The position numbers and the translations under genes are program-made. Below are positions 8,682 to 30,400 of a stretch of DNA of 64,000 nt, one piece after another. Source of the stretch: Leucobacter sp. G161. Lineage in GTDB: Bacteria > Actinomycetota > Actinomycetes > Actinomycetales > Microbacteriaceae. A model generated the notes under the pieces. That model ran no database searches and was not told the origin of the DNA. It saw only the letters and a program-made list of their open reading frames with translations. Where the stretch lies: contig NZ_LOHP01000063.1 of assembly GCF_001482305.1 (NCBI RefSeq), positions 1 through 64,000 of the forward strand. Reading direction: 5' to 3'. The first letter of the stretch is position 1; each line of letters begins with the position of its first letter.

Positions 8682-9476
8682 ATGACACTCGAAGCAACAC
8701 GCACCACCACGACGCAGCTGGGGGAGCCCGCTGGGCAGTCCCAGACCGGAACCGACGCGCTCGCCGCGGGTGACGGCGGGCCAGAACCGCGCTCGGCGCG
8801 CATCGGTCAGAAGCTCAACTGGCTCCGCGCCGGCGTGCTCGGCGCGAACGACGGCATCGTCTCCGTCGCCGGCGTCGTCATCGGCGTCGCCGCGGCCACC
8901 CCGGGCAACACTGTCGCGGTCGCGACCGCTGGTGTTGCCGCGCTCGTCGCCGGCGCCTTCTCGATGGCCGGCGGCGAATACGTCTCAGTGAGCACACAGC
9001 GCGACACCGAGAAGGCGCTCATCGACCAGAAACGCCGCTCGCTCGCCGAACAGCCAGCGGTTGAGCTGCGCGGCCTCGCCGGGTTCTACCGCAGGCGCGG
9101 GGTGTCCGCGGCTCTCGCGACGCAGGTCGCCGAGGAGCTCAGCGCCCACGACGCACTTGCCGCACACGCTGAGGTCGAACTCGGCATCGACCCTGATGAG
9201 TACACGAGCCCGTGGGCAGCAGCGATCTCCTCGTTCGTCGCGTTCACGGTCGGCGGGCTGTTGCCGCTCATCATGATCCTGCTTCCGCTCGGCGCTGGTC
9301 GTATCCCGGCAGCGGGCCTCGCGGTGCTCGTTGGGCTCGTGCTCACCGGGTGGATCTCGGCCAAGCTCGGCGAGGCGCCACGGGCGCGTGCCGTCTTGCG
9401 GAACGTGCTTATGGGTGGCGCGACGATGATCGCGACCTACCTCATCGGATTGCTGTTCGGCGTCGCCGTCGGATAG
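8682..9476 (+). CDS. VIT/CCC1-family Fe/Mn transporter
   Basis: A 264-residue membrane protein of the vacuolar-iron-transporter family, which moves Fe(II) or Mn(II) out of the cytoplasm in exchange for protons. The family motif GANDGIVSVAGVVIGVAAA is at about residues 55-73, followed by GAFSMAGGEYVSVSTQRD. A charged helical metal-binding hairpin spans about 105-165 (many E/D/H), and three membrane helices close the protein. GGGGGAAGGGG precedes the ATG. The two upstream iron boxes suggest control by a DtxR/IdeR regulator, matching an iron-detoxification role. Confidence 0.88.
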   Translation: MTLEATRTTTTQLGEPAGQSQTGTDALAAGDGGPEPRSARIGQKLNWLRAGVLGANDGIVSVAGVVIGVAAATPGNTVAVATAGVAALVAGAFSMAGGEYVSVSTQRDTEKALIDQKRRSLAEQPAVELRGLAGFYRRRGVSAALATQVAEELSAHDALAAHAEVELGIDPDEYTSPWAAAISSFVAFTVGGLLPLIMILLPLGAGRIPAAGLAVLVGLVLTGWISAKLGEAPRARAVLRNVLMGGATMIATYLIGLLFGVAVG

Positions 9477-9490
9477 CTAGGCTGGGGGGC

Positions 9491-10405
<915 letters not shown>

Positions 10406-10411
10406 GAACTG

Positions 10412-10435
10412 GCTGCGCTGCTGCGCTGCTGCGCT
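10412..10435. repeat. 8-bp tandem repeat after menB
   Basis: Three perfect copies of GCTGCGCT begin 7 bases after the menB stop codon, followed by a degenerate fourth. Confidence 0.7.
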
Positions 10436-10487
10436 GCCGCGCCGCGGGGTCACGACGGAGGCCCGTTGCGCTCTGCCCAGCAACCCG

Positions 10488-10550
10488 GCCCCGTTTTTCC
10501 GTTCTGAGCCTTATACGGCCTGTGTAAGGCACAGAACGAAAAACTGGGGC
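10488..10550. repeat. Hairpin repeat, family 2, copy 1
   Basis: Long imperfect hairpin. GCCCC-TTTTTC-GTTCTG-GCCTTA pairs with TAAGGC-CAGAAC-GAAAAA-GGGGC around a short loop. It is 83 bases after menB and could also end its transcript. It shares its outline and CTGAGCCT core with the element at 11168-11231. Confidence 0.7.
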
Positions 10551-10648
10551 TCGGAAGGATACTGGGGCGGGTCAGTTGGGGCCGCAAACTGATATGAGGG
10601 GTTCTTCACGGTTGAGCGTGTAGGCCTCGGCAAGCAGGAGCGCCGAAC

Positions 10649-10725
10649 AGACATGCCCTGAGCAAAGTCAGGGTGTTTTCGCTGCTGATCAATCCTGACT
10701 TCGCTGAGGACATGTCTTCTGAGCG
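10649..10725. repeat. Palindromic repeat, family 1, copy A
   Basis: The 69-base palindromic part begins AGACATG and ends CATGTCT, with inner arms around AAAGTCAGG and CCTGACTT and a TGAGCG tail. It is related to copies at 35618 and 54849 and has the same length. Confidence 0.75.
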
Positions 10726-11167
10726 CTATTCAGGGGCGTTCTTTGCTGTGCAGGTGTAGCAGCCGTGGTGAGCGGGAGGGCTTCACAGTGGACCCAGCGG
10801 GCCGGAGGAAACCGCTCAGCGCAATCGGGCGCCGCCAGCTGCTCGCCGGCAGTGGGAGCCCCGCAGCGCTCAGACCCGGGCCACCCGGCTTCACCGCGGG
10901 AACGCGACGCACCTGCTGGCATCTGTGCGCGGAGCTGCCGCGGGCGCTTCGCGCCCGTGCCGTGGAGGGCAGGCGGGCCCGGGTCGCGCGCATGTCGCAG
11001 TAGTCGAGACGCGTTCGTCGGGCCTGGTGGTTATGGCCTTCCGGTGGTTCCAGAAATGCCTCACTCGCCACGTCCATTCGCCAGCACCGGGAGCCCCCAC
11101 ACCCCGAATGTGAAGAGCCACATGCGATTGGGGGCGAGCGTCCGGCACCGCCCATCGCACCTGCTCC

Positions 11168-11231
11168 GCCCCGAGTTTTCTTTGCTGAGCCTGATGCAGG
11201 CTGCAAATGCCTCGGAATAGAAAAATGGGGG
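11168..11231. repeat. Hairpin repeat, family 2, copy 2
   Basis: Begins CCCCGAGTTTTC, contains CTGAGCCTGATGCAGGC and ends GAAAAATGGGG. It aligns along its length with copy 1 at 10488-10550, though its own stem is less perfect. It lies about 50 bases upstream of menE. Confidence 0.6.
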
Positions 11232-11280
11232 GTGGGGGAGGGGCGCGCCTCCTTTCACCGGGGCGCGGTACCCTGGATGG

Positions 11281-12525
11281 GTGACCGCACCCCACGTTCT
11301 CCGCACGATTCCGGTTGAGGATCGCGCCTGGCTCATCGCCGCACTCGACGACGCCCTCGCTGGCGGCGCCCCAATTCTTCCGCTCGCTCCCGGGCTCGAC
11401 CCGGGAGACCCCGAGATCGAAGCGATCCGCGCGCTCGCGCTGCCCGAGGGCACCGCGGTGGTGGTGCGCACCTCAGGATCGAGCGGGACGCCCAAAGCCG
11501 TCGCGCTGTCCCGCGACGCGATCGTGGCGAGCGCTGCGGCGACCGCCGAGACCCTCGGTGGGCCCGGCCAGTGGCTGGTCGCCCTCCCGACGCAGCTGAT
11601 CTCGGGACTGCAGATGCTCGTGCGCAGCGCCGCCAGCGGCATCGAGCCCGTGTTCGCGCCCGCGGGTGCCGACGCGCGTGCGCTGCTCGACGCGGCGGAT
11701 CAGCTTGCGCACGACCGGCGCTACGTGTCGCTCGTACCTGTGCAGCTCGCCCGGCTGCTCGATGTCGCCGAAGCCGACGAGGACGCGGCAGAGACGCTCC
11801 GCCGCTTCGACGCAGTGCTCGTCGGCGGGCAGGCGGTGTCGCTCGAACTGCGCCGCCGCGCCCACGCCCTCGGCGTGAGCCTGCGCCGGTCGTACGGTAT
11901 GACCGAGACGGCGGGCGGCTGCGTGTACGACGGCGTCGAGATCGGGGACACGCTCGTGCGTATCCGCGGCGGCGAGGTGCAGCTGGCTGGGCCGACGCTC
12001 GCGCTCGGATACCTCGGCGACGACGCGCAGACCAACGACCGGTTCGTGGTCGAGCCCGACCGCGATGGTGTGCCAGTGCGCTGGTATCGCACCGGCGATG
12101 CTGGCGAACTGCTGGGCGGCATGCTCACGGTGACCGGGCGGCTCGATCGCGTCGTGATCTCGGGCGGGGTGAACGTGTCGCTCGACGAAATCGAGCGCGT
12201 CGCCCGCGAGTATGCCGGGTGGGAGAGCGCGGTCGCGCTCGCCACCGATCACCCGGAGTGGGGATCCCGCCCTGGGCTCGTCGTCGAAACGACGGCGGGC
12301 GCCGCACCGTTCGACGAGGTACGCGAGGGCGTGCGGGCGAGGCTCGGAGCCGCCGCAGCGCCCGAGTGGGCGACCGAGGCCGAGCAGCTGCCGCGCCTCG
12401 CGGGCGGCAAGCCAGACTATGCCGCCATTGACACGTGGATCCGCTCGCTGCGCCAAAGCCTGGTCCAGCTTGGCGGGACTATACGCGACGCAACCCCACC
12501 GGCCGAGAACGAGGAGACAGCGTGA
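11281..12525 (+). CDS. menE: o-Succinylbenzoate-CoA ligase
   Basis: A 414-residue AMP-forming ligase activating o-succinylbenzoate for MenB. The short length, compared with 500+ residues for general acyl-CoA ligases, is typical of actinobacterial MenE. The nucleotide motif RTSGSSGTPKAVALS starts near residue 64, then RRSYGMTETAGGCVYDG, WYRTGDAGEL and GRLDRVVISGGVNVS. The C-terminal lysine motif is LAGGKPDYA. The GTG start has a GGATGG sequence before it. The stop overlaps the menA start (GTGA), indicating translational coupling. Confidence 0.93.
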   Translation: MTAPHVLRTIPVEDRAWLIAALDDALAGGAPILPLAPGLDPGDPEIEAIRALALPEGTAVVVRTSGSSGTPKAVALSRDAIVASAAATAETLGGPGQWLVALPTQLISGLQMLVRSAASGIEPVFAPAGADARALLDAADQLAHDRRYVSLVPVQLARLLDVAEADEDAAETLRRFDAVLVGGQAVSLELRRRAHALGVSLRRSYGMTETAGGCVYDGVEIGDTLVRIRGGEVQLAGPTLALGYLGDDAQTNDRFVVEPDRDGVPVRWYRTGDAGELLGGMLTVTGRLDRVVISGGVNVSLDEIERVAREYAGWESAVALATDHPEWGSRPGLVVETTAGAAPFDEVREGVRARLGAAAAPEWATEAEQLPRLAGGKPDYAAIDTWIRSLRQSLVQLGGTIRDATPPAENEETA

Positions 12526-22215: not shown

Positions 22216-22240
22216 TGGCGGAGGGTAGGAGATTTGAACT
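22216..22240. repeat. Attachment site, left (displaced tRNA 3' end)
   Basis: The 25 bases TGGCGGAGGGTAGGAGATTT plus GAACT are identical to 30310-30334 within tRNA-Ser(TGA). The rest of the tRNA is absent here, so this is the original 3' end displaced by insertion. Confidence 0.88.
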
Positions 22241-22306
22241 TTCAAGCTCCACCCAACTCCAGCAAGCCTCACGGTGCACTAAATGGCATGATAGCAACGA
22301 TCTGCG

Positions 22307-22326
22307 GGTGCTACACATGTAGCACC
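22307..22326. promoter_or_regulatory. Palindrome 1 near the left att site
   Basis: GGTGCTACA-CA-TGTAGCACC, 9-bp perfect arms, 67 bases from the att core. Possible arm-type site for integrase or excisionase. Confidence 0.4.
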
Positions 22327-22418
22327 TGCACCCAGAAACATGATGATGCGCCAGCGGTGCCCCATCGTTTGCCCCATGGAAACGTCTGAGCTCACGCAAT
22401 TCTGAGATTGCGCGCACC

Positions 22419-22440
22419 AGGTGTCACATTTGTTACACCT
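22419..22440. promoter_or_regulatory. Palindrome 2 near the left att site
   Basis: AGGTGT and ACACCT arms around a 10-base spacer. Same AGGTGT element as palindrome 3. Confidence 0.35.
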
Positions 22441-22580
22441 GAGCCGAACACACACAAGATGGCCTCTCTGCTGCAGAGGTCATCGACACAGACAGAACTG
22501 TCCACATGGTCGGATCTCAAATCCGGTCATCTTTACCCCCGAACCGGGGAAAAGGACCCGTTCTCAAAACTTACCCCAGG

Positions 22581-22596
22581 TGTAAAGACCTTTACA
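22581..22596. promoter_or_regulatory. Palindrome 3 near the left att site
   Basis: TGTAAAG-AC-CTTTACA, 7-bp perfect arms, embedded in two flanking AGGTG words. Possible integrase arm-type site. Confidence 0.35.
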
Positions 22597-22743
22597 GGTG
22601 ACCACTTCGTTGAGCTCAACAACATGATCGCCAAGGGTACTCAGAAGTGAGTACCCCATGACCTGCATCACACAGGCGATGCCGCTCGAGCTCCACGCCG
22701 CTGCCGCACCCGATCAAGCACAGTGGGCACGTGCAAAGCGAAC

Positions 22744-22962
22744 CTACCGAGAACGGCGGTCAGGAGCAGCAAGCCCCCTCAAACCAAGACGAACCTCTCG
22801 CTCCTCCACAATCTTCGCCAACAAACCACCAGGCCAAGAATTCGACTCAGCCCACACAGACCGCGCCGCCTTCCACTCATCGAACGAACCCCACACCGAC
22901 TCATCAAACCGCACCAACTCCACCGGCACGCCCTCCAGCCGGTCCACCTTCTTACGCCTCAC
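22744..22962 (-). CDS. Small hypothetical element protein
   Basis: A 72-residue charged protein whose start overlaps the stop of the terminase-like gene upstream (ATGA), so it is translationally coupled. It is rich in Arg, Glu and Val with no membrane segment. I do not recognise it. Codons end in T/G far more often than in the flanking chromosome, supporting phage origin. It is the last gene of the leftward block. Confidence 0.6.
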   Translation of the reverse strand: MRRKKVDRLEGVPVELVRFDESVWGSFDEWKAARSVWAESNSWPGGLLAKIVEEREVRLGLRGLAAPDRRSR

Positions 22963-23294
22963 CGCTTGCCCCCATACACTCCACGAGCCTTACCCGCCGC
23001 CGGCAAATCATCATTCGCATCAGGCACACCCAACGTCACCAACAACCGAGCCAAAGCAAGCCGCTGCTGCCGAGCCTCAGCCACAGCCGGATGCAACCTC
23101 GCACCCTGCGACGACGCAAGCATCAGACCCTCATCCGACACCAGACCATCCAAATCACCAATCCGGTCACGCACACGACACGCCTGCTCCAACTGCGCAA
23201 GCTCATGCTCCGCCAAATCAAACTCACCAGTAACCGACCTCCAAAGCCGCTTACCACCATCACCAAGCCCCCTAGGGGCACGTGTTTCACTCAT
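22959..23294 (-). CDS. Terminase small-subunit-like protein
   Basis: A 111-residue helical protein beginning MSETRAPRGLGDGGKRLWRS. It continues with EFDLAEHELAQLEQACRVRD, LVSDEG, SQGARLHPAVAEARQQRLAL and LLVTLGVPD. That order (GKRLW at the start, HPAV-E-R near the C-terminus) resembles the small subunit of P27-type phage terminases, which recognises the packaging site on DNA. AAAGGA lies 7 bases before the ATG at 23294. No large subunit is present in the element, so a helper phage motor would be needed. Family assignment is from motif resemblance only. Confidence 0.65.
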   Translation of the reverse strand: MSETRAPRGLGDGGKRLWRSVTGEFDLAEHELAQLEQACRVRDRIGDLDGLVSDEGLMLASSQGARLHPAVAEARQQRLALARLLVTLGVPDANDDLPAAGKARGVYGGKR

Positions 23295-23411
23295 AATCAA
23301 TCCTTTCAAGGGTCATTCATTTCAAAGCTCGGAGGGAGCGATCGCTATGCCGCGGGGGCGAACCTGAGTGGCATAGGGGGCTCCCCTCCCCACCCTTCTG
23401 TTGGTATGGGT

Positions 23412-23447
23412 GAGGCCCGCCGCTCCTGGTGTGGAGTTGCGGGCCTC
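23412..23447. terminator. Terminator-like hairpin behind the capsid gene
   Basis: Perfect 9-bp stem GAGGCCCGC/GCGGGCCTC with an 18-base loop, in the 239-base gap between the capsid gene and the terminase-like gene. No U-tract is obvious. Confidence 0.45.
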
Positions 23448-23533
23448 GGTGGCGCAGGTAGGTCTTCACGTCAATTCACTGAAACCCGCTCGCTACCTTC
23501 AGGCGAAAGGATGCCTGTTGACGCCTGCTTGTG

Positions 23534-24376
23534 TCACTCGCTTGTGAGTGAGAACTTTCCGATTCGGTTTGCCTTGACGACGTTCCAACCGATTCGCCAA
23601 GTCGCGCGAAGTGCAACGCTGTCGCTGGTGAAGTAGATGCTTTCGTCGGTTGCGACCTTCACTGGTCCGACTGCTGATGCGATCGCGCTGGAGTCGAGAA
23701 CGATTCCGCTGTTGGCGCTGAGTGCGCTGGTGACTGTGACTGGCAGATCGAGCAGCATCTTCACGCTGTCGTTGGTGCCTGCTCCGAGTAGTGCGGTCTG
23801 TGCGCCGGTGCCGGTCTTGATCTTGCGGAGGGCGGCCCATGCGAGGGGGTCGAGGAGGATGCCGGTGGGGGTGCCCCCGTTGGATTCCAGGCCCGCCACC
23901 AGATCGATGAGGGGGTCAAGGTTCGCGGTGATGGGGTCGCCCTGAACGATGCCCGGAATGTTCAGGATGCCTGCAGGGGGTGCGGTGTTGCTGCCGGTGG
24001 GCTTGGGCTGGGTGAGGAATGCCTCGTTGCCCTTCTTCGTGATCGCACGCTGCACACTCAGCGAGAGTTCCCCCGCGGTGCCCTGCTGGTGGTACTGCTC
24101 CTGGGAGAGACGAACGAGCTGGGTGATCTTCGCCGTGTAGACGAGCACCTCGTCAAGCGTCGGGTTTGCCTCGGGGATCTCGGCTGCCTCGGCGGTGAAC
24201 TGGGCGGTGTCGTCGGTGACGTATGCGACTCGCAGTGCGGGTGCGTCTCCCTCGATCACACCGGCAACGGTGGAGTGCTGGAGGATGAGCGCGTCGGGGA
24301 CGACCTCGGCGGGGTTGAAGATGCTCTGATCCGGTCGCCATGCCTTGGACGCGGTGAGGGTTGTCTGGGTAGCCAT
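23534..24376 (-). CDS. Phage major capsid protein, HK97 fold
   Basis: A 280-residue protein typical of compact actinophage major capsid proteins. The N-terminal arm (WRPDQSIFNPAEVVPDALI) is followed by the spine-helix region with VLVYTAKITQLVRLSQEQYH. The A-domain contains NGGTPTGILLDPLAWAALRKIK, and the C-terminus TDESIYFTSDSVALRATWRIGW. No prohead delta domain or fused protease precedes it; a separate scaffold-like gene lies upstream. AGGAG sits 6 bases before the ATG. A hairpin lies in front of the gene and another behind it. It is the clearest structural gene in the element. Confidence 0.85.
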   Translation of the reverse strand: MATQTTLTASKAWRPDQSIFNPAEVVPDALILQHSTVAGVIEGDAPALRVAYVTDDTAQFTAEAAEIPEANPTLDEVLVYTAKITQLVRLSQEQYHQQGTAGELSLSVQRAITKKGNEAFLTQPKPTGSNTAPPAGILNIPGIVQGDPITANLDPLIDLVAGLESNGGTPTGILLDPLAWAALRKIKTGTGAQTALLGAGTNDSVKMLLDLPVTVTSALSANSGIVLDSSAIASAVGPVKVATDESIYFTSDSVALRATWRIGWNVVKANRIGKFSLTSE

Positions 24377-24391
24377 TGTGGGCTCCTGTCC

Positions 24392-24417
24392 GGTGGCCTG
24401 AATAGAAGAAGGCCACC
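24392..24417. terminator. Hairpin upstream of the capsid gene
   Basis: Perfect 8-bp stem GGTGGCCT/AGGCCACC with a 10-base loop, just upstream of the capsid ribosome site. It could attenuate read-through or stabilise the capsid mRNA 5' end. Confidence 0.4.
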
Positions 24418-24508
24418 AACGAAAACGAGTGTGTTTCGCCGGTGGCCTCTGGCCTGTCCGGGTTGCCCCTGTCTGGGGCTTCCTTGCAGATAGTCGCGGC
24501 CTCGGGCC

Positions 24509-24541
24509 TGCGGTAGAACCTGCACTAATGATTCTACCGCA
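24509..24541 (-). terminator. Hairpin after the scaffold-like gene
   Basis: Perfect 10-bp stem TGCGGTAGAA/TTCTACCGCA with a 13-base loop, 12 bases beyond the scaffold-like stop on the minus strand. No U-tract, so partial termination or processing is possible. Confidence 0.5.
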
Positions 24542-24553
24542 GACCGGGGACTT

Positions 24554-25009
24554 TTACCTCTTGGGGGCGAATGCCGTGTCGAAGTCGGCCTGTGGGACGA
24601 ATGCGGCGGACTCGGCTCCTGCGCGTATCTTCGGTAGCTCGGTGAACATGTAGGGCTTGTGTTCCAGGAGTCCACTCATGAGCGTTTCGAAGGCTTCGGG
24701 GTCGAGGGTGCCGCCGTTGGTGAAGATTTCCTCGGTGTCGATCCCGGCGTCCTGGAGGGCGTCGAGGTTGAACTGTTTGCCCCCGATTGCGTGTGCAGTG
24801 AGGTGGGCGCGGAGAAGTTCGGTGCGTGCTGCGTGTAGCGAGTTTTTGAGTGTGTCGCGTTCGGTTTCGGTGTCTCGCAACTGGCGACGGTATTTCGCGG
24901 CCTCCCGTCCGGGCTTGCTGGTGTCGTCTGGCGTCTCGGTAGTGGGAGGTTCCAGTGTGGCCTCTGTCGTGGTGTCGGTCGGGTTCTCGGTCACGGTTTC
25001 CTCGGTCAT
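24554..25009 (-). CDS. Scaffold-like capsid assembly protein
   Basis: A 151-residue acidic protein. The first 35 residues are T/E/P-rich (TTTEATLEPPTTETPDDTSK). A coiled-coil follows at about 38-70 (YRRQLRDTETERDTLKNSLH), then LDALQDAGIDTEEIFTNGG and a C-terminal tail ending FAPKR. This layout, directly upstream of an HK97-type capsid gene, is typical of phage scaffolds. The ATG overlaps the previous stop by one base (TAATG). Confidence 0.7.
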   Translation of the reverse strand: MTEETVTENPTDTTTEATLEPPTTETPDDTSKPGREAAKYRRQLRDTETERDTLKNSLHAARTELLRAHLTAHAIGGKQFNLDALQDAGIDTEEIFTNGGTLDPEAFETLMSGLLEHKPYMFTELPKIRAGAESAAFVPQADFDTAFAPKR

Positions 25010-25254
25010 TATTTGTTCCTTTCGTTGAGCTGCATTCGCAGCGCGTTGATGGTTTGGTCGCGTCGGGCGACTTGTTGTTGAGCGGTTCGTGCCGCCGCTT
25101 CGGCGCGCGTGACGCGGTCGCGAAGTGCGATGTTTTCTGCGGACAGCCGAACTGCTACTTGTCTGTCGCGGTCGCCGTCTTTGGCTTTGACTCGTGATGT
25201 GGCGGCTTCGCGCCTGAGCCTTTGCACGTACTCGAGAGTGAACGTCTCTGTCAC
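25009..25254 (-). CDS. Small coiled-coil element protein
   Basis: An 81-residue protein from a GTG at 25254 that overlaps the previous stop (GTGA). Its centre is a long charged helix with heptad spacing (VRLSAENIALRDRVTRAEAA, then ARTAQQQVARRDQTINALRM). It probably acts as an oligomeric coiled coil; I do not recognise a family. It is coupled to the scaffold-like gene, so a structural or assembly role is plausible. Confidence 0.55.
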   Translation of the reverse strand: MTETFTLEYVQRLRREAATSRVKAKDGDRDRQVAVRLSAENIALRDRVTRAEAAARTAQQQVARRDQTINALRMQLNERNK

Positions 25255-25448
25255 GGTTGGGTGTCCCTTCGTTCGTGTGCTTCGGTGAGGTCGTGGATTC
25301 GATTCACGAATTTGTACGCATCGGCGTATTCCATGAACCCGGCCCGTTTGACTCCCATGTAGATGACGATGACGTGTCGGTCGGTTGTGCCGTCGTCGTT
25401 TCTGAACTCGTAATCTCGGGCTTTGAAGCCTGAAAACTTTTGGTGCAT
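25251..25448 (-). CDS. Small hypothetical element protein
   Basis: A 65-residue protein from the ATG at 25448, rich in aromatic residues (FKARDYEFRNDDG, VIVIYMGVKRAGFMEYADAY). The frame stays open to a GTG at 25505, but that region is occupied by a hairpin, so I prefer the internal ATG. It is coupled to the next gene by GTGA. No recognised family. Confidence 0.5.
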   Translation of the reverse strand: MHQKFSGFKARDYEFRNDDGTTDRHVIVIYMGVKRAGFMEYADAYKFVNRIHDLTEAHERRDTQP

Positions 25449-25475
25449 GTGATGCCCATTTCTTGCGTTGAGGGT

Positions 25476-25552
25476 GTGAGCGCTGGCGTTTTGACCAACG
25501 CTCACATCCGCATGATTTCAACGATCTAAGCGTTGGCCGTTTGCCCAGCGCT
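25476..25552. repeat. Pair of similar hairpins
   Basis: Two inverted repeats share arms of AGCGyTGG/CCArCGCT: 25476-25505 (11-bp arms, one mismatch) and 25529-25552 (8-bp arms). They span the end of the putative replication gene and the gap behind it. They could be tandem terminators or protein/origin sites. Confidence 0.5.
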
Positions 25553-26821
25553 AGAGCCAATTAGAGAGATTCGCTCGGTCCTTTGACCTCGGTAGACTTC
25601 CTCGCGAATGATGACCTGCCCGTCGTCCTCGAGGTCATAGAGGGCGGCGTCGAGGTACTCACGAAGCCGACGAGAGAGCCCGGCTTGGATGCGACCCTTG
25701 GCGACTGAGTCCGTGCCGATGGTCTTGATTATGCGCTCCTTGACCTTTGCTATTGCCACGTCAGCAGCCCTCACGTCGGTCTCAACCTCGGCTTCACCTC
25801 GCAGCACGGCTGAGGCGCGGCTGCGGGCTTGCGTAGCGTCACGGAGCGCGTCCACACATGACTGCCTCACCCGGTCGGACTCTTCCATCACGAGACCAGA
25901 CAGTCGCCAGTCCTCCTCATTGACGCCGGTCTTGCCGTCGAGCAGCGCGAGCAGTGCCGCAATCTTCAAGCGAGCAAGTAGCGCGTGACCGTCGAGCGCG
26001 TCGCCTTCACCTCGGAGCCTTGCGACTGCTGCCGTGGTGATCGTGGTTGCTGCGGTGGCGCACACCTTGAGCACTCGCTTACCGTCCTCTCGGGCGGGCA
26101 CCTGGGGTGGTGTCCACTCGTGGGGCTCGAGCGGTGCCGGGGGTTGTGCTGGCGCGTCTGGGTCGGATGCCGTGAACCACACGAACCGCTGCGGAAACCC
26201 ACCTGCCGATTCATCGAGCAGGGTTCCGGAGCGCTCAGGCTGCACACCCATAACCACGGCCATTCGGTAACTGTGTGCAGGCACGATGATTGACCGTTCA
26301 GCAGTTCGGTTGCGAAACCCGAGCGGTGCCCCATCCCACGCTTTGCGGAGCTCACTCGTTGTGGTGGAGCCGCTGCGGCCTGCAATGGCTCCGAGCGTGT
26401 CCACCTCGGCTATGTCGATCAACGCGCTGTCGGTGTGGATCTCGGTGATCGGGGTGCCGTCGTCAGCTTTCCCTGGTTTAGCGAATGCTGCCGCGATGCC
26501 TTCACCGGAACCGATGGTGGTTTCTGTAAACCTGAGCAGACAGTTTGTCACCCGAAACCATGATCCAGCGGCCCCTTGAGATGCCCCTTTGCCGCCACCT
26601 GATCTTGCGACGATTGTAAAGAACGGGTTAATGCTCGCGACGCTTCCCACGAACTCGGGCGTAACCACCTCCGGTGGGACTGCTGTTGCCACTCGGGCGA
26701 GCACACCGGCAAGCATGGCCGTTGGCGCCACTCTGCGGGCTTGTGCTTGTTGTCTGATTTGGGCGAGCACTGGGCGTGATTCCCAGAACTCACGCGGCAA
26801 CCCTGATGCTGTTGCTGTCAT
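25526..26821 (-). CDS. Putative replication/primase-helicase-like protein
   Basis: A 431-residue protein resembling DUF3987-type proteins found in phages and integrative elements. An N-terminal helical part (LPREFWESRPVLAQIRQQAQ) precedes a weak P-loop, VARSGGGKGAS near residue 71. An acidic motif (DSALIDIAEVDTLGAIAG) follows near 115, then VMGVQPERSG and FPQRFVWFT. The order fits an ATPase that acts on element DNA, but the P-loop has Gly instead of Ser/Thr after Lys. GGAAG precedes the ATG at 26821. It overlaps the upstream gene by 32 bases. Confidence 0.55.
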   Translation of the reverse strand: MTATASGLPREFWESRPVLAQIRQQAQARRVAPTAMLAGVLARVATAVPPEVVTPEFVGSVASINPFFTIVARSGGGKGASQGAAGSWFRVTNCLLRFTETTIGSGEGIAAAFAKPGKADDGTPITEIHTDSALIDIAEVDTLGAIAGRSGSTTTSELRKAWDGAPLGFRNRTAERSIIVPAHSYRMAVVMGVQPERSGTLLDESAGGFPQRFVWFTASDPDAPAQPPAPLEPHEWTPPQVPAREDGKRVLKVCATAATTITTAAVARLRGEGDALDGHALLARLKIAALLALLDGKTGVNEEDWRLSGLVMEESDRVRQSCVDALRDATQARSRASAVLRGEAEVETDVRAADVAIAKVKERIIKTIGTDSVAKGRIQAGLSRRLREYLDAALYDLEDDGQVIIREEVYRGQRTERISLIGSSAGQTANA

Positions 26822-27125
26822 TGGTATCTTCCACATCTGCCGCGAAGAAGGCGGCCTCTTGAAGTTTGAAATGATGATCGAGGCGGCGCTGGTAGACCTC
26901 TGCACGGTCTTTCGGTGCGTATGCCTGGAGGTAGGCGAGGTCGAGCTTGTGCTCGTACTCGCGGGCCTGCTGCTGTGCCACACTGGCCGCTGCCGCCCAC
27001 CCCGCGTGATAGAACGCTTCGACCGAGAGGGGGAGTTCTCCGAGAAGGAGCTCCCCCCTCATCAGTCGATCAAGCCACACTTCGAGGTGACGGTCAGCGA
27101 TCTCGCTAATGCTCTGGCGAGTCAT
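26790..27125 (-). CDS. Hypothetical element protein
   Basis: A 111-residue, mostly helical soluble protein beginning MTRQSISEIADRHLEVWLDR, with AFYHAGWAAAASVAQQQARE in the middle. No recognised family. It overlaps both neighbours (20 bases with the gene before, 32 with the one after), as in compact phage early operons. Confidence 0.6.
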   Translation of the reverse strand: MTRQSISEIADRHLEVWLDRLMRGELLLGELPLSVEAFYHAGWAAAASVAQQQAREYEHKLDLAYLQAYAPKDRAEVYQRRLDHHFKLQEAAFFAADVEDTNDSNSIRVAA

Positions 27126-27381
27126 TGCTGCCCCAGTCCACTCCTCGCACGACGTTGTCGAACGAGTAAGGCACGGTCTTGCCGTAACGGATCTCGTGGG
27201 CGATCTCGTGGAGTCTGGAAGCGACAGCATCTATCACGTCCGGCTCGTGGATCGAGAGCACGAGCTTGTCGCCGTCGTCGGAGAGAAACCCAGCCGCGCA
27301 GGTGCGTTCGTCGTGTTCGCCGGGGAACACAGGTACGACGTAATCGTTCGCGGTCATGCGCGAGTCATGGTTGCAGTTCAC
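27106..27381 (-). CDS. Hypothetical element protein
   Basis: A 91-residue acidic protein from a GTG at 27381 that overlaps the previous stop (GTGA). An internal ATG at 27357 would give 83 residues. It contains FPGEHDERTCAAGFLSDDGD and EPDVIDAVASRLHEIAHEIR. No recognised family. Confidence 0.55.
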   Translation of the reverse strand: MNCNHDSRMTANDYVVPVFPGEHDERTCAAGFLSDDGDKLVLSIHEPDVIDAVASRLHEIAHEIRYGKTVPYSFDNVVRGVDWGSNDSPEH

Positions 27382-27719
27382 AGTCCACCCCCGATTCCGT
27401 GCTGGTCGGGCTCGCCTGGCTCGGTGTGGCGTACGAGCGGGTTCATGGTGACCATGAATCCGACGGCTGCGGCCTCGATCTTGTCGAGCTCGGCGCGCAT
27501 GTTCTGGATGAACGCGGGCATCTGAGCGAGGGGGATACTCCAGTCGATGGACTCGCAAATGTCTATTGACGGTGAGCCCTCGTCGAGCACGAGGTCATGG
27601 CGCAGGACCGCGACACCGGTTTTGCGGCGGTCGTGCTTCATGTGGAAGTTGGGGCACCCGCGAGGGTTGGTGTGGTCTTCTTCGCACCACGAGCGTTCGG
27701 GGCAAGTGTTCGCGCTCAT
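27378..27719 (-). CDS. Hypothetical protein with Cys/His N-terminus
   Basis: A 113-residue protein with C-x(5)-C-x(9)-C at residues 6-22 (CPERSWCEEDHTNPRGCPNF) and a following histidine, plausibly a small metal-binding module. It resembles short CP-WC proteins common in actinobacterial mobile elements. The remainder is helical (MPAFIQNMRAELDKIEAAAV). One-base overlap with the gene before. Confidence 0.6.
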   Translation of the reverse strand: MSANTCPERSWCEEDHTNPRGCPNFHMKHDRRKTGVAVLRHDLVLDEGSPSIDICESIDWSIPLAQMPAFIQNMRAELDKIEAAAVGFMVTMNPLVRHTEPGEPDQHGIGGGL

Positions 27720-27928
27720 TATGCTGCCACCTCGCTCTGCTGTTCAAGGATGTGCACCGCGACGGCCTGCAGGGCTGCTGCGAAGGCGCAGGCCTGTTCC
27801 GGGCTGAACTCGAGTGCTCCGAGCTCGGTGTGTACCCAGACACTGTTGTCTGTGGCGAACACGGTCTTGTTGCCGACGTGAATATCGGTATCGAACTTCT
27901 CAGCCTGAACGGCTACTGTTGTAAGCAT
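27719..27928 (-). CDS. Small hypothetical element protein
   Basis: A 69-residue protein starting MLTTVAVQAEKFDTDIHVGN. AAGAAGGAG lies 5 bases before the ATG at 27928. An ATG at 28018 is in frame, but a GC hairpin (27975-27994) lies between, so I use the downstream start. No recognised family. Confidence 0.6.
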   Translation of the reverse strand: MLTTVAVQAEKFDTDIHVGNKTVFATDNSVWVHTELGALEFSPEQACAFAAALQAVAVHILEQQSEVAA

Positions 27929-27974
27929 CGATGCTCCTTCTTCTTGCAAGTGGAATTGGTTTCGGTTTCTGATT

Positions 27975-27994
27975 GCCCCGCCTGGCCGCGGGGC
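27975..27994. terminator. GC hairpin behind the excisionase-like gene
   Basis: Perfect 7-bp stem GCCCCGC/GCGGGGC with a 6-base loop, between the excisionase-like gene and the rest of the leftward operon. It could limit read-through. Confidence 0.4.
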
Positions 27995-28010
27995 TTTCTT
28001 CATTTCTGGG

Positions 28011-28226
28011 CTAGTCATCTTCGACCTCGAAAAGCTTGATGAACTTCTCGCGTGGGATTAGCACGCGCCGACCTAGCTTGATCGCGGGAATCGTCCCGTC
28101 TTTAATTCCCGCCGTGATGGTTCGCGGGTCCACCCCCGCAATCGCGCCGGCCTCCGCTCGAGTAATCGCGGCGAGGGTTGATTCGCGGGCTTCGGCCAGC
28201 GTCCCGATGGGTTTAGGGCTAGTCAT
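28011..28226 (-). CDS. Excisionase-like HTH protein
   Basis: A 71-residue DNA-binding protein of the excisionase/MerR-like winged-helix group. TRAEAGAIAGVDPRTITAGI forms the helix-turn-helix, and DGTIPAIKLGRRVLIPREKF is the wing typical of this group. GAAAGGA lies 5 bases before the ATG at 28226. It is the first gene of the leftward block and faces the regulator/integrase genes across a region with two identical-architecture operators. It probably directs excision and/or represses its own promoter. Confidence 0.75.
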   Translation of the reverse strand: MTSPKPIGTLAEARESTLAAITRAEAGAIAGVDPRTITAGIKDGTIPAIKLGRRVLIPREKFIKLFEVEDD

Positions 28227-28237
28227 TTTTTCCTTTC

Positions 28238-28261
28238 GTGAGGCACTTCGACCTGCCTCAC
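28238..28261. promoter_or_regulatory. Element operator 1
   Basis: GTGAGG-N12-CCTCAC inverted repeat, 12 bases upstream of the excisionase-like start. The arms extend to 7 bp (GTGAGGC/GCCTCAC). Confidence 0.65.
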
Positions 28262-28278
28262 CATGAGCGTACACGGTC

Positions 28279-28304
28279 GGTGAGGTTCATGCAACTACCT
28301 CACC
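28279..28304. promoter_or_regulatory. Element operator 2
   Basis: Same GTGAGG-N12-CCTCAC layout with 8-bp arms (GGTGAGGT/ACCTCACC), 32 bases upstream of the rightward regulator start. It is exactly 42 bp (four helical turns) from operator 1. Confidence 0.65.
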
Positions 28305-28335
28305 AAACATCGAGGTGCCTTGCTATGCTTGGGGC

Positions 28336-29016
28336 ATGACGGGTCAAATACTCACACCGGAAGAACTTGAGCGAGCCAAACCAAAGCTCCCCGACCCCTG
28401 GGTCGAGGAAGGGCTCTTGGACGCCGGACGACGCGACGCCATCGAATCAGTCGCGGGCATGGACCTCTGGATTGAAGATCTGACTGAGGGCGAGAAGCGT
28501 GGAGAGCTGAGGACACCTCGCGCAGCTTACGTACTAGGCCGCCGGTGGGTGCGCGTGCGCAACACGGAAACAGGCACTGTCGCCTTTCTCCGGCTGCAAC
28601 AACGCGTCACGCCAGAGCAGCCTTCCGTACGGGTGAGTTCGGTGGTGCTCCCCTTCAACCCGGACAAGGATCTAACTGGTGCCGACCTTCGAAGCGTCCC
28701 CATCCAGGCAATAACCGCTGCATATTCGGCGCACGAAGACGAGGGAAACGCGAACCTCATGCGCTCACTATTGCTCATGGGGGAACTGGACGAGGACCCC
28801 ATGTCACCCCTCCCTCCGGCGGAATCTAGCGACGTGTTTAGTGCCCGCGTTTCGCGGCAGTACATCGAGATCGAAAGGCAGCACCCTGAGCTGTCGCCTG
28901 TGGAAGAAATGATGAGAATAAACAGCGCGGCTCGGAGTAGCGTGCAACGATGGGTGACTCGGGCGCGCAAACGCGGGTTGCTGCCTCCGGCAGTTCAAGG
29001 CAAGCGAAATGACTGA
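28336..29016 (+). CDS. Putative element regulator
   Basis: A 226-residue soluble protein. The N-terminal two thirds are not recognised. The C-terminus ERQHPELSPVEEMMRINSAA then SSVQRWVTRARKRGLLPP looks like a helix-turn-helix similar to regulators that precede integrases in actinobacterial elements. It overlaps the integrase start by 8 bases, so the two are one transcription unit reading towards the tRNA. Candidate binder of the twin operators, as is the excisionase-like protein. The ATG at 28336 has a weak ribosome site. Confidence 0.6.
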   Translation: MTGQILTPEELERAKPKLPDPWVEEGLLDAGRRDAIESVAGMDLWIEDLTEGEKRGELRTPRAAYVLGRRWVRVRNTETGTVAFLRLQQRVTPEQPSVRVSSVVLPFNPDKDLTGADLRSVPIQAITAAYSAHEDEGNANLMRSLLLMGELDEDPMSPLPPAESSDVFSARVSRQYIEIERQHPELSPVEEMMRINSAARSSVQRWVTRARKRGLLPPAVQGKRND

Positions 29017-30226
29017 GAAGCGCTCCCGCCGCCGCGGCAAGGGCTCGCTGCAGAGCTACCAGACCAAAGCCGGTGTGCGTTGGCGGTTCCAAATCTGGGT
29101 GCCCGTCGATCACGAGAAGCCCGAACTCGGAGACAAGAAGCACAGCCGTGCCGGATTCATGACGAGCAACGATGCCGACGATGCCATGCAGGACGCGCTC
29201 AAGAAGCGACGCGCTCAAGAGGCCTTCCACAAGTCGGTGCCGACTGTCAGCGAGTACGCGACCCAATGGCTCGAATCACTGCGCCTCGAAGCCTCGACAG
29301 TCGATAGCTACCGGCGATTGATCCGCAACCACATCGCGCCCTACTTCGAGACGCTGCCGATCGACAAGCTCACGCCAACACGCATTGCGCGCCACTATCG
29401 GGATCTTGAGAAGCACGGACGCAAGGATGCGCGTGGCCTCGGGCAAGGGTTGTCTGCGAACACGGTCAACAAGGTTCACATCGCGCTCGGCGCACTGCTC
29501 GAGGCGGCACTAGATGACGGCCTGATCTCTTCAAACCCTGCCAAGAAGAAGCGCACCGTGAATGCGCCCACAGGCCGCGATATTCGTGCCGCGAAGCCTG
29601 ATATTCAGACCTGGACTGCAGCCCAGTTGCATGCCTTCCTCCGGTGGGATCGCGATGTTCACGAAGACGAGCTCTTCACGTTGTGGCGTGTGATCGCGTT
29701 CACTGGGTTGCGCCGTTCAGAAGCGCTCGCGCTGCGCTGGGAAGACGTGCACCAAAAGACCGCCAAGCTCAGCTTGCGGCGTGCCGTCAATATCGCGGAC
29801 AGGCAGCACACCAAGAAGACCAAGACCGGCTCAGCCCGCTCGCTCGAGCTGGACGCTGAGACACTGCAGGCGCTCAAGTCACTCAAGGCGCTGCGCGGTT
29901 CGATCTCGCTGGATCTCGCGAGGCCGGAGGCGTACATCTTCGCCGGCCTCGATGGTGGACTCCGCAACCCTGACAAGGTGAGCAAGCGTTGGGGGACACT
30001 CATGAAATACGCAACCGGCGCAATTCCAGGACTTCCGCGCATTACCCTCAAGGAACTCCGCCACACACACGCCACAGTGCTGCTGGAACTAGGGGAGCAT
30101 CCGAAGATTGTTCAGGAACGGCTCGGGCATTCGACCATCGCCACGACCATGAATATCTATTCGCACGTCACCCCGACGATGCAGCGCAGCGCAATCGACA
30201 GGCTCGCAAAACACGTCGACGGATAG
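29009..30226 (+). CDS. int: Tyrosine integrase
   Basis: A 405-residue site-specific recombinase that integrates and excises the element at tRNA-Ser. An N-terminal AP2-like arm-binding domain (SYQTKAGVRWRFQIW) is followed by a SAM-like core-binding domain (about 75-180). The catalytic domain carries Arg in TGLRRSEALALRW, HTHATVLLELGEHPKIVQER with the His-x-x-Arg-type box, LGHSTIATTMNIYSHV, and the nucleophilic Tyr in that last motif. Its stop is 84 bases from the att core, the usual place for such a gene. Confidence 0.92.
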   Translation: MTEKRSRRRGKGSLQSYQTKAGVRWRFQIWVPVDHEKPELGDKKHSRAGFMTSNDADDAMQDALKKRRAQEAFHKSVPTVSEYATQWLESLRLEASTVDSYRRLIRNHIAPYFETLPIDKLTPTRIARHYRDLEKHGRKDARGLGQGLSANTVNKVHIALGALLEAALDDGLISSNPAKKKRTVNAPTGRDIRAAKPDIQTWTAAQLHAFLRWDRDVHEDELFTLWRVIAFTGLRRSEALALRWEDVHQKTAKLSLRRAVNIADRQHTKKTKTGSARSLELDAETLQALKSLKALRGSISLDLARPEAYIFAGLDGGLRNPDKVSKRWGTLMKYATGAIPGLPRITLKELRHTHATVLLELGEHPKIVQERLGHSTIATTMNIYSHVTPTMQRSAIDRLAKHVDG

Positions 30227-30261
30227 CCCCTGCCCCATATTTCGCCCCATAGACGCGAAAA

Positions 30262-30300
30262 AGCCCCCGACCTCGGTAGTAAACTACCTGATCGGGGGCT
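30262..30300. terminator. Element terminator serving int and tRNA-Ser
   Basis: Stem AGCCCCCGA/TCGGGGGCT with an inner GGTAGT/ACTACC stem. On the minus strand it ends in TTTTT, so it can terminate tRNA-Ser, and on the plus strand it lies 36 bases after int. It is element DNA and replaces the displaced host terminator at 22183-22213. Confidence 0.7.
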
Positions 30301-30309
30301 AGTTCTTAC

Positions 30310-30334
30310 TGGCGGAGGGTAGGAGATTTGAACT
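30310..30334. repeat. Attachment site, right (within tRNA-Ser)
   Basis: 25 bases identical to 22216-22240, covering the T-arm 3' half, acceptor 3' strand and CCA of tRNA-Ser(TGA). Confidence 0.88.
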
Positions 30335-30400
30335 CCTGAGACGGGATCACCGCCTGCTTGTTTTCAAGACAAGTTCCTTCGGCCGCTCGGACAACCCTCC
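30310..30400 (-). tRNA. tRNA-Ser(TGA)
   Basis: A 91-base class II tRNA on the minus strand. Acceptor GGAGGGT pairs with ACCCTCC, the anticodon arm CTTGT-CTTGAAA-ACAAG gives anticodon TGA, a long variable arm follows, and the T arm contains AGTTCAAATCT. CCA is encoded. Its 3' end is supplied by the integrated element. Confidence 0.95.

Follow-up and report, generated by a model that had tools for sequence, protein, structure and literature searches.

An 8.1-kb capsid-carrying island in a tRNA-Ser gene of Leucobacter sp. G161 is probably a helper-dependent phage satellite

What kind of element sits in a serine tRNA gene of Leucobacter sp. G161 with a capsid gene of its own and no recognisable portal, packaging motor or tail? 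The question is raised by a stretch of 64,000 nucleotides (contig NZ_LOHP01000063.1, positions 1 to 64,000; hereafter the window), in which 8,119 bp at 22216-30334 are occupied by an intact island, integrated at a tRNA gene, that carries integration and replication genes, a scaffold-like gene, a capsid gene and a gene for a terminase small subunit (TerS). We consider it probable that this island is a helper-dependent phage satellite, which would build its own small shell while its TerS directs the motor, portal and tails of a helper phage.

The limits of the island are set by TGGCGGAGGGTAGGAGATTTGAACT, an exact 25-bp direct repeat present at 22216-22240 and 30310-30334 (spacing 8,094), and an exact pair of 25-mers within 10 kb is estimated to arise by chance at less than 1e-6. 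ARAGORN calls an intact tRNA-Ser(tga), also matched by the Rfam tRNA family, at 30310-30400 of the minus strand, and therefore the right attachment (att) repeat, attR, is the 3' end of the tRNA gene used as integration site, whereas the left one, attL, is a displaced fragment of it. The island has a GC content of 0.603 against 0.668 for the remaining window, and all 81 other 8.1-kb segments sampled reach at least 0.648. Empty sites were searched for with the neighbouring LCP gene in 54 genomes of the genus, from which 30 loci were fetched. Among the closest ones (L041-L044, 88-90% identity), L041, L043 and L044 show the tRNA gene adjoining LCP with a single att copy, so that the site is empty, and L042 has no att within 1.5 kb; a longer stretch of this same place (L075, genome G314) holds one att and one unrelated gene, and the element is absent. 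At 2038-3429 of L075, a 463-aa open reading frame (ORF) lies between LCP and tRNA-Ser(tga) that L041, L043 and L044 do not have.

The virion parts encoded by the island form a short module on the minus strand. The major capsid protein (MCP) gene (23534-24376) encodes 280 aa of the HK97 fold (PF05065, 1.2e-17; phrog_10, 1.9e-19). With an AlphaFold2 model of modest confidence (pLDDT 65, pTM 0.65), HK97-type capsids ranked first in Foldseek (best E 1.8e-12, TM about 0.58, root-mean-square deviation about 9), and this model, together with the length of the protein, leaves no obvious delta domain. Encapsulins also appeared in the Foldseek list, but this identity was rejected, as the family is Phage_capsid and the gene is linked to both a scaffold-like gene and TerS. 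The preceding 151-aa protein (24554-25009) has no Pfam or PHROG match, and is called scaffold-like because of its position, its homologues directly upstream of MCP in 30 of the 33 related loci described below (at E<=0.01; none in L106, L111 and L115; 8 of the 30 are in the profile by construction) and an indirect match to an annotated gene, the 'scaffolding protein' of an isolated Mycolicibacterium relative, which matches the homologues of L018 and L017. On the other side of the capsid gene, TerS (22959-23294, 111 aa) matches phrog_1496 (1.2e-18) and the TerS of the Mycolicibacterium records Alyssa1 and JSForest2 (37-46% identity), with a Pfam Terminase_4 score of 0.0034 that lies below the family cut-off. 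The MCP-TerS intergenic region (23295-23533) is a candidate packaging site, as the linear records of isolated relatives start just upstream of TerS; a by-eye comparison of three Mycolicibacterium record ends with this gap gave no convincing shared motif. The module closes with a 72-aa ORF (22744-22962) that overlaps the TerS stop by 4 bp and has no Pfam or PHROG match. This arrangement of TerS and a small ORF recurs in L070 and L118, with no clear homology between the 72-aa ORF and its positional equivalents.

Mobility and replication are covered by three further genes: a tyrosine integrase of 405 aa (29009-30226, plus strand; PF00589, 1.6e-18), a 71-aa excisionase/AlpA-like protein of the HTH_17 family (28011-28226, minus strand; PF12728, 1e-6) and a DUF3987 replication protein of the primase-helicase C-terminal type (25526-26833, minus strand; PF13148, 1e-10; phrog_11515, 1.4e-63). 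In the latter, as in its homologue from the sister island L026, the PHROG 'DNA polymerase/primase' match covers the C-terminal part of the family only. No profile for portal, large terminase (TerL), protease, tail or lysis proteins matched among all 14 ORFs of the element in the PHROG and Pfam scans. An earlier sequence-only reading had listed 25-bp att repeats around an intact tRNA-Ser(TGA) with its displaced fragment, an integrase, an excisionase-like protein, a putative replication gene, a terminase-small-like gene and an HK97-type capsid of 280 residues, together with the lack of portal, large terminase, protease, tail and lysis genes, all of which the exact repeat pair, the tRNA call and the profile and Foldseek results bear out; its scaffold-like gene holds as well, by position and homologues and without a family match. 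Bounded by att sites, with an integrase, an excisionase-like gene, a replication gene and an incomplete set of virion genes, the element has the structural features of an integrative phage satellite, which would in addition be mobilised by a helper phage.

Is this gene set what is left of a larger phage? Most structural genes are missing, as would be the case in a decayed or domesticated prophage, and the relatives of the island bear directly on this point. Genomes with a related capsid amount to 11 of 299 from the family (at 1e-5), 30 of 396 from the order (at 1e-10) and 13 of 394 from the class (at 1e-20), the window genome being counted in each case, and the GTDB contigs and IMG/VR gave 12 loci and one locus of 4.9 kb, respectively; a member of the capsid clade, L036, comes from Mycobacterium nebraskense. 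The order-wide search returned 34 places, of which one is the window, 20 were fetched with long flanks and 13 weaker ones were left, while the 14 new places from the class-wide search stand outside the locus set. This set comprises 33 loci, window included, once L021, L022, L023, L029, L037 and L107 (some decayed, others unrelated, bearing a different capsid or lying at a contig edge) are left out; L105 duplicates L033, and L027, L034 and L035 duplicate L014, L016 and L017. Direct repeats, searched for at spacings of up to 16 kb or more, bound 25 of the 33 loci as islands of 7,069-9,912 bp (mean 8,638, standard deviation 732; L115 is outside these statistics), and 20 of these islands sit at a tRNA gene that ARAGORN recognises (Ser, Arg, Leu, Met, Pro, Tyr, Val, Ala or Gly) and with which their repeat overlaps, the exceptions being L016, L020, L112, L116 and L118. 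Serine-recombinase-like genes and no usable repeat are found in L028, L033, L117 and L119 (called by similarity in L117 and L119, by eye in L028 and L033), and L121 is cut off by a contig edge. Two loci of genome G511, L114 (9,087 bp) and L120 (8,580 bp), are whole small contigs with capsid and scaffold-like genes and no integrase match; the former has a 95-bp terminal repeat, as in a circular molecule, and the latter none, and both are possibly plasmid-like satellites.

The stand-alone islands are not full prophages because each of them is too small for one. With 25 repeat-bounded islands among 33 loci, the block is not confined to full prophages and does exist in independent copies. Its closest relative, L026 of Leucobacter ruminantium, is an island of 8,118 bp with a 22-bp att at a tRNA-Tyr gene, and its integrase, HTH, DUF3987 and MCP proteins share 57%, 62%, 47% and 75% identity with those of the window. 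L026 keeps the gene order of the window element from the integrase through HTH, DUF3987 and the scaffold-like gene to the capsid, but a 184-aa protein stands where TerS would be. The ratio of nonsynonymous to synonymous substitutions (dN/dS, Nei-Gojobori; values approximate, with dS of 0.8-2) is 0.16-0.30 for the capsid in seven pairs, in an analysis that also took in L029, and between window and L026 it is 0.32 for the integrase, 0.26 for DUF3987 and 0.54 for the scaffold-like gene. The capsid is thus under purifying selection, and the genes of the element are open. Some relatives have indeed decayed, such as L115 (5.3 kb, with a repeat and two stops in the match), L037 (a broken capsid) and L021 (an integrase fragment). 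Nevertheless, islands of similar size standing alone in many hosts and sites, with open genes and a selected capsid, make a prophage remnant a very improbable description of this locus, and they support the minimal satellite that the sequence-only reading had proposed.

Where does the capsid come from? Among 50,697 phage records, the MCP of the window has one match, at 30%, and that of L017 also has one, the 11-kb Alyssa1; the window TerS matches 15 phage records, four of them 11-kb Mycolicibacterium records. When their own capsid was used as query, twelve records of Mycolicibacterium aichiense (OR387110-OR387121, 10.9-11.1 kb) were found to carry a related MCP, about 25% identical to that of the window. 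In the three examined of these twelve (OR387110, OR387116 and OR387121, our L070, L071 and L072), TerS, adaptor, stopper, MCP and tape measure are annotated, and no portal, large terminase or major tail protein. Though deposited as complete phages, these three look like satellites. Their deposition as soil phages makes it likely that particles were the source of the sequenced DNA, and such 11-kb records with related capsid and TerS offer indirect evidence that elements of this kind are packaged. In a tree of 37 capsids, L029 among them, the Mycolicibacterium capsids lie beside L118 among the island capsids (fork 89/92, not starred), and three true phages lie on long branches of unsure placement, one of them inside the island capsids. 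A capsid lineage restricted to satellites is therefore suggested by the searches of phage records, and not proved by the tree. Neither the Mycolicibacterium records nor satellites of Leucobacter are the subject of any paper recognised among the matches listed by a literature search.

A capsid without an accompanying portal also brings to mind a capsid redirector, in which satellite and helper capsid proteins co-assemble into a mixed shell of reduced size, as is the case for Ccm of SaPIbov5. Ccm shares 24% identity with the capsid of its helper and forms no capsids alone, according to the account in PMC8569155, which presents it as the sole SaPIbov5 protein needed. Here, on the other hand, 30 of the 33 loci have a scaffold-like gene linked to their capsid gene, and phage records contain almost no members of the capsid family, so that we find a redirector unlikely.

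The genes that follow the capsid vary. A head-tail adaptor lies near the capsid in L031, L033 and L029 (the last outside the 33-locus set), the one in L031 being 71% identical to that of Rhodococcus phage ReT1v. Tape measure genes are present in L015 (6978-9008, 676 aa) and L020 (6861-9050, 729 aa), with a weak case in L030; the L015 protein shares 46-54% identity, over 40-62% of its length, with the best-ranked Microbacterium, Corynebacterium and Arthrobacter phages. In L019 (11514-12952), L121 (7490-8880) and L122 (7489-8904) the large terminase is divided between two neighbouring ORFs, a split that is probably genuine, and not an error, since it recurs in three related islands. HNH nucleases account for 3-4 of the 67 proteins scanned, and many islands have, beyond the capsid, genes that belong to no known family. 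Segments resembling WhiB were seen in proteins of L016 (11897-12661, weak matches) and L033 (8042-8317, by similarity to L016). From these differences in adaptor, tape measure, HNH and split TerL, each island appears to combine a shell of its own with one part, or a few, of the interface with a helper.

No portal was found in the 33 loci, within the limits of the profile scans. With PHROG and Pfam, 67 proteins were scanned (62 of the 82 ORFs after the capsid, plus five others), and as 25 of 66 families were listed for PHROG, the lack of a portal among them stands on Pfam, for which all 21 families were listed; among the 107 ORFs of at least 240 aa in the 33 loci, those unscanned were assigned by similarity, save a few (on the opposite strand, or beyond the capsid in L028). 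In the eight loci outside the 25 repeat-bounded islands, with part of their flanks annotated, no portal was seen either. Across 26 genomes, the phrog_12 portal profile gave one match (G684:C20, with one stop), away from the island capsid on C6, a negative that is weak evidence because this profile misses other portal families, and the phrog_2 TerL profile gave matches in 17 of the 26, many of them weak and three in islands (G217, G481 and G684). The excluded L022 is an att-bounded island of 7.8 kb at a tRNA-Ser(cga) gene, with a 380-aa capsid and a portal (9192-11843).

Since portal, motor and tail are missing, a helper must supply them. A candidate exists in the same genome, where contig C102 carries TerS, TerL and portal genes near its end (L074) and contig C91 an MCP, a tail protein and a 1,015-aa tape measure (L024, L025 and L136). 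Both look like pieces of a tailed prophage, perhaps a single one split between two contig ends. This resident prophage was rejected as the source of the island capsid, as the two capsids show no similarity. Procapsids can form from scaffold and capsid proteins without a protease in many phages, and the Microbacterium phage Footloose has TerS, TerL, portal, MuF, scaffold, capsid and adaptor genes in this order, while the annotation of its first 20 kb lists no protease. Upon helper infection or prophage induction, the satellite would excise and replicate with its own primase-helicase; scaffold and capsid proteins would then assemble a small shell around the helper portal, TerS would recognise the packaging site of the satellite and recruit the helper TerL, and helper tails would finally be attached. 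The capsid protein of the island may form the shell alone, and TerS may select the DNA.

Several observations weigh against such a satellite, or against extending it to all relatives. TerS was found in only two of the 33 loci (window and L118), and another gene takes its place in L026, so that the TerS step cannot be general. The TerS of the candidate helper (phrog_1459) belongs to another family than that of the island (phrog_1496), and the two capsids cannot be aligned (BLASTP E 0.34); moreover, the divergence of Ccm from its helper capsid (PMC8569155) means that low similarity is compatible with co-assembly. The absence of a portal may reflect the limits of the profiles, as phrog_12 missed even the portal of the resident prophage. 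Finally, the repeats are only 17-21 bp in L016, L106, L108 and L116, and in L016 a longer 18-bp repeat was set aside for the one adjoining the integrase.

Satellites often carry anti-phage functions, and several small genes of the island belong to no known family. Both points would fit a defence element, that is, a satellite needing only helper packaging whose capsid gene mainly interferes with phage assembly. Linkage of the capsid to a scaffold-like gene and to TerS speaks for packaging instead, and we hold a defence role to be very improbable.

If the island is a shell-building satellite, how is its capsid gene expressed? The 177 nt between the scaffold-like and capsid genes (24377-24553, minus strand) form a structured RNA leader (z -6.0 versus shuffles). 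The equivalent gaps of the window and 26 other loci, in a comparison that left out L109 and took in L029, gave z<-2 in 25 of 27 cases versus one of 27 capsid-coding control segments (60 shuffles each), the exceptions being L036 and L018. Hairpin 1 of this leader shows two-sided changes at 9 of its 16 pairs across six related islands, and its score was equalled in 2 of 500 shuffles and is above every slid version, in an alignment picked around the hairpin itself, which favours the result. A copy of GGCCACCGG beside the ribosome-binding region of the leader could give an alternative pairing. Rfam has no family for 24377-24553, and no paper on capsid leader RNAs was recognised among the matches listed. 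The leader probably sets capsid expression.

The remaining genes are small. The 226-aa protein at 28336-29016 and the integrase read rightward, whereas all others, from HTH_17 through the 72-aa ORF, read leftward in the order HTH_17, four small ORFs, DUF3987, two small ORFs, scaffold-like gene, capsid, TerS and 72-aa ORF. The 226-aa protein, in the position of a regulator, matches no Pfam or PHROG family and is 27% identical to an integrase-adjacent gene in L112. The four small ORFs are a 69-aa one at 27719-27928 and three conserved proteins at 27378-27719 (50% to L014), 27106-27357 (34% to L014) and 26790-27125 (43% to L014, 52% to L026), the first three without any family match. After DUF3987 come an ORF of 65-84 aa with an uncertain start (25251-25448, 51% to its L014 homologue) and another of 81 aa (25009-25254) without a PHROG match, for which a PolyA_pol match of 0.0011, below cut-off, was taken as chance.

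How does the element compare with systems already described? The Mycolicibacterium records OR387110-OR387121 share the related capsid, the scaffold-like gene and, in the two compared, TerS (37-46%), but differ in their serine integrase, head-tail adaptor, stopper and tape measure, in their larger size and in being deposited as phages. The phiRv elements carry a protease, for which the island has no match. Candidate phage-inducible chromosomal islands (PICIs) of Mycobacterium, said to include phiRv1/phiRv2, have been published as elements with integrase and capsid, some at tRNA genes and some with helicase, terminase or scaffold genes (PMC10654092); the island falls within that working definition, which, unlike our description, asks for integrase and capsid only. 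PICIs of the SaPI (Staphylococcus aureus pathogenicity island) type have a TerS by which helper packaging is redirected, a role that the TerS of the island may play. SaPIbov5 Ccm is likewise an HK97-type capsid homologue within a satellite, but has a delta domain and is described as the sole satellite protein in its capsids (PMC8569155). The PLE satellites of Vibrio cholerae, a separate family, have their own tape measure (PMC12987554), as do L015, L020 and the Mycolicibacterium records and unlike the window element, a likeness by description only. By published criteria in which an integrase and one structural gene make an intact prophage (PMC10023795), islands like these can be misfiled.

Closer are the satellites that form their own capsids. 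Capsid-forming PICIs (cf-PICIs) also have a major capsid gene of their own and are described with protease, portal, connectors, both terminase subunits and HNH (PMC10690885). As the sequence-only reading had stated, phage satellites of this kind usually carry a different subset of genes: of the set described for cf-PICIs, TerS alone accompanies the capsid here, and with the tested defining genes absent (portal, protease, connectors and large terminase) the element is not a cf-PICI. The Streptomyces satellites MulchRoom and MiniFlayer resemble it in being actinobacterial, with their own capsid, scaffold and TerS, but are described with portal and TerL and no known primase (PMC10690885), whereas the island has a primase-helicase and neither of those. 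There is about an even chance that the Actinomycetota satellites of some 8-9 kb are, as a group, minimal shell-builders with a scaffold-capsid pair, a conserved leader RNA, swappable helper-interface genes and a satellite-specific capsid lineage; their related capsids are common enough for study, and both the leader RNA and the narrow range of sizes lend themselves to tests. A shell without portal and motor would mean that a foreign capsid can nucleate on the helper portal, and would test the specificity of the portal vertex. Altogether, the element resembles in its way of working the self-capsid satellites described (PMC10690885), with fewer parts than they have: these also bring portal and motor, and here the shell has been separated from both.

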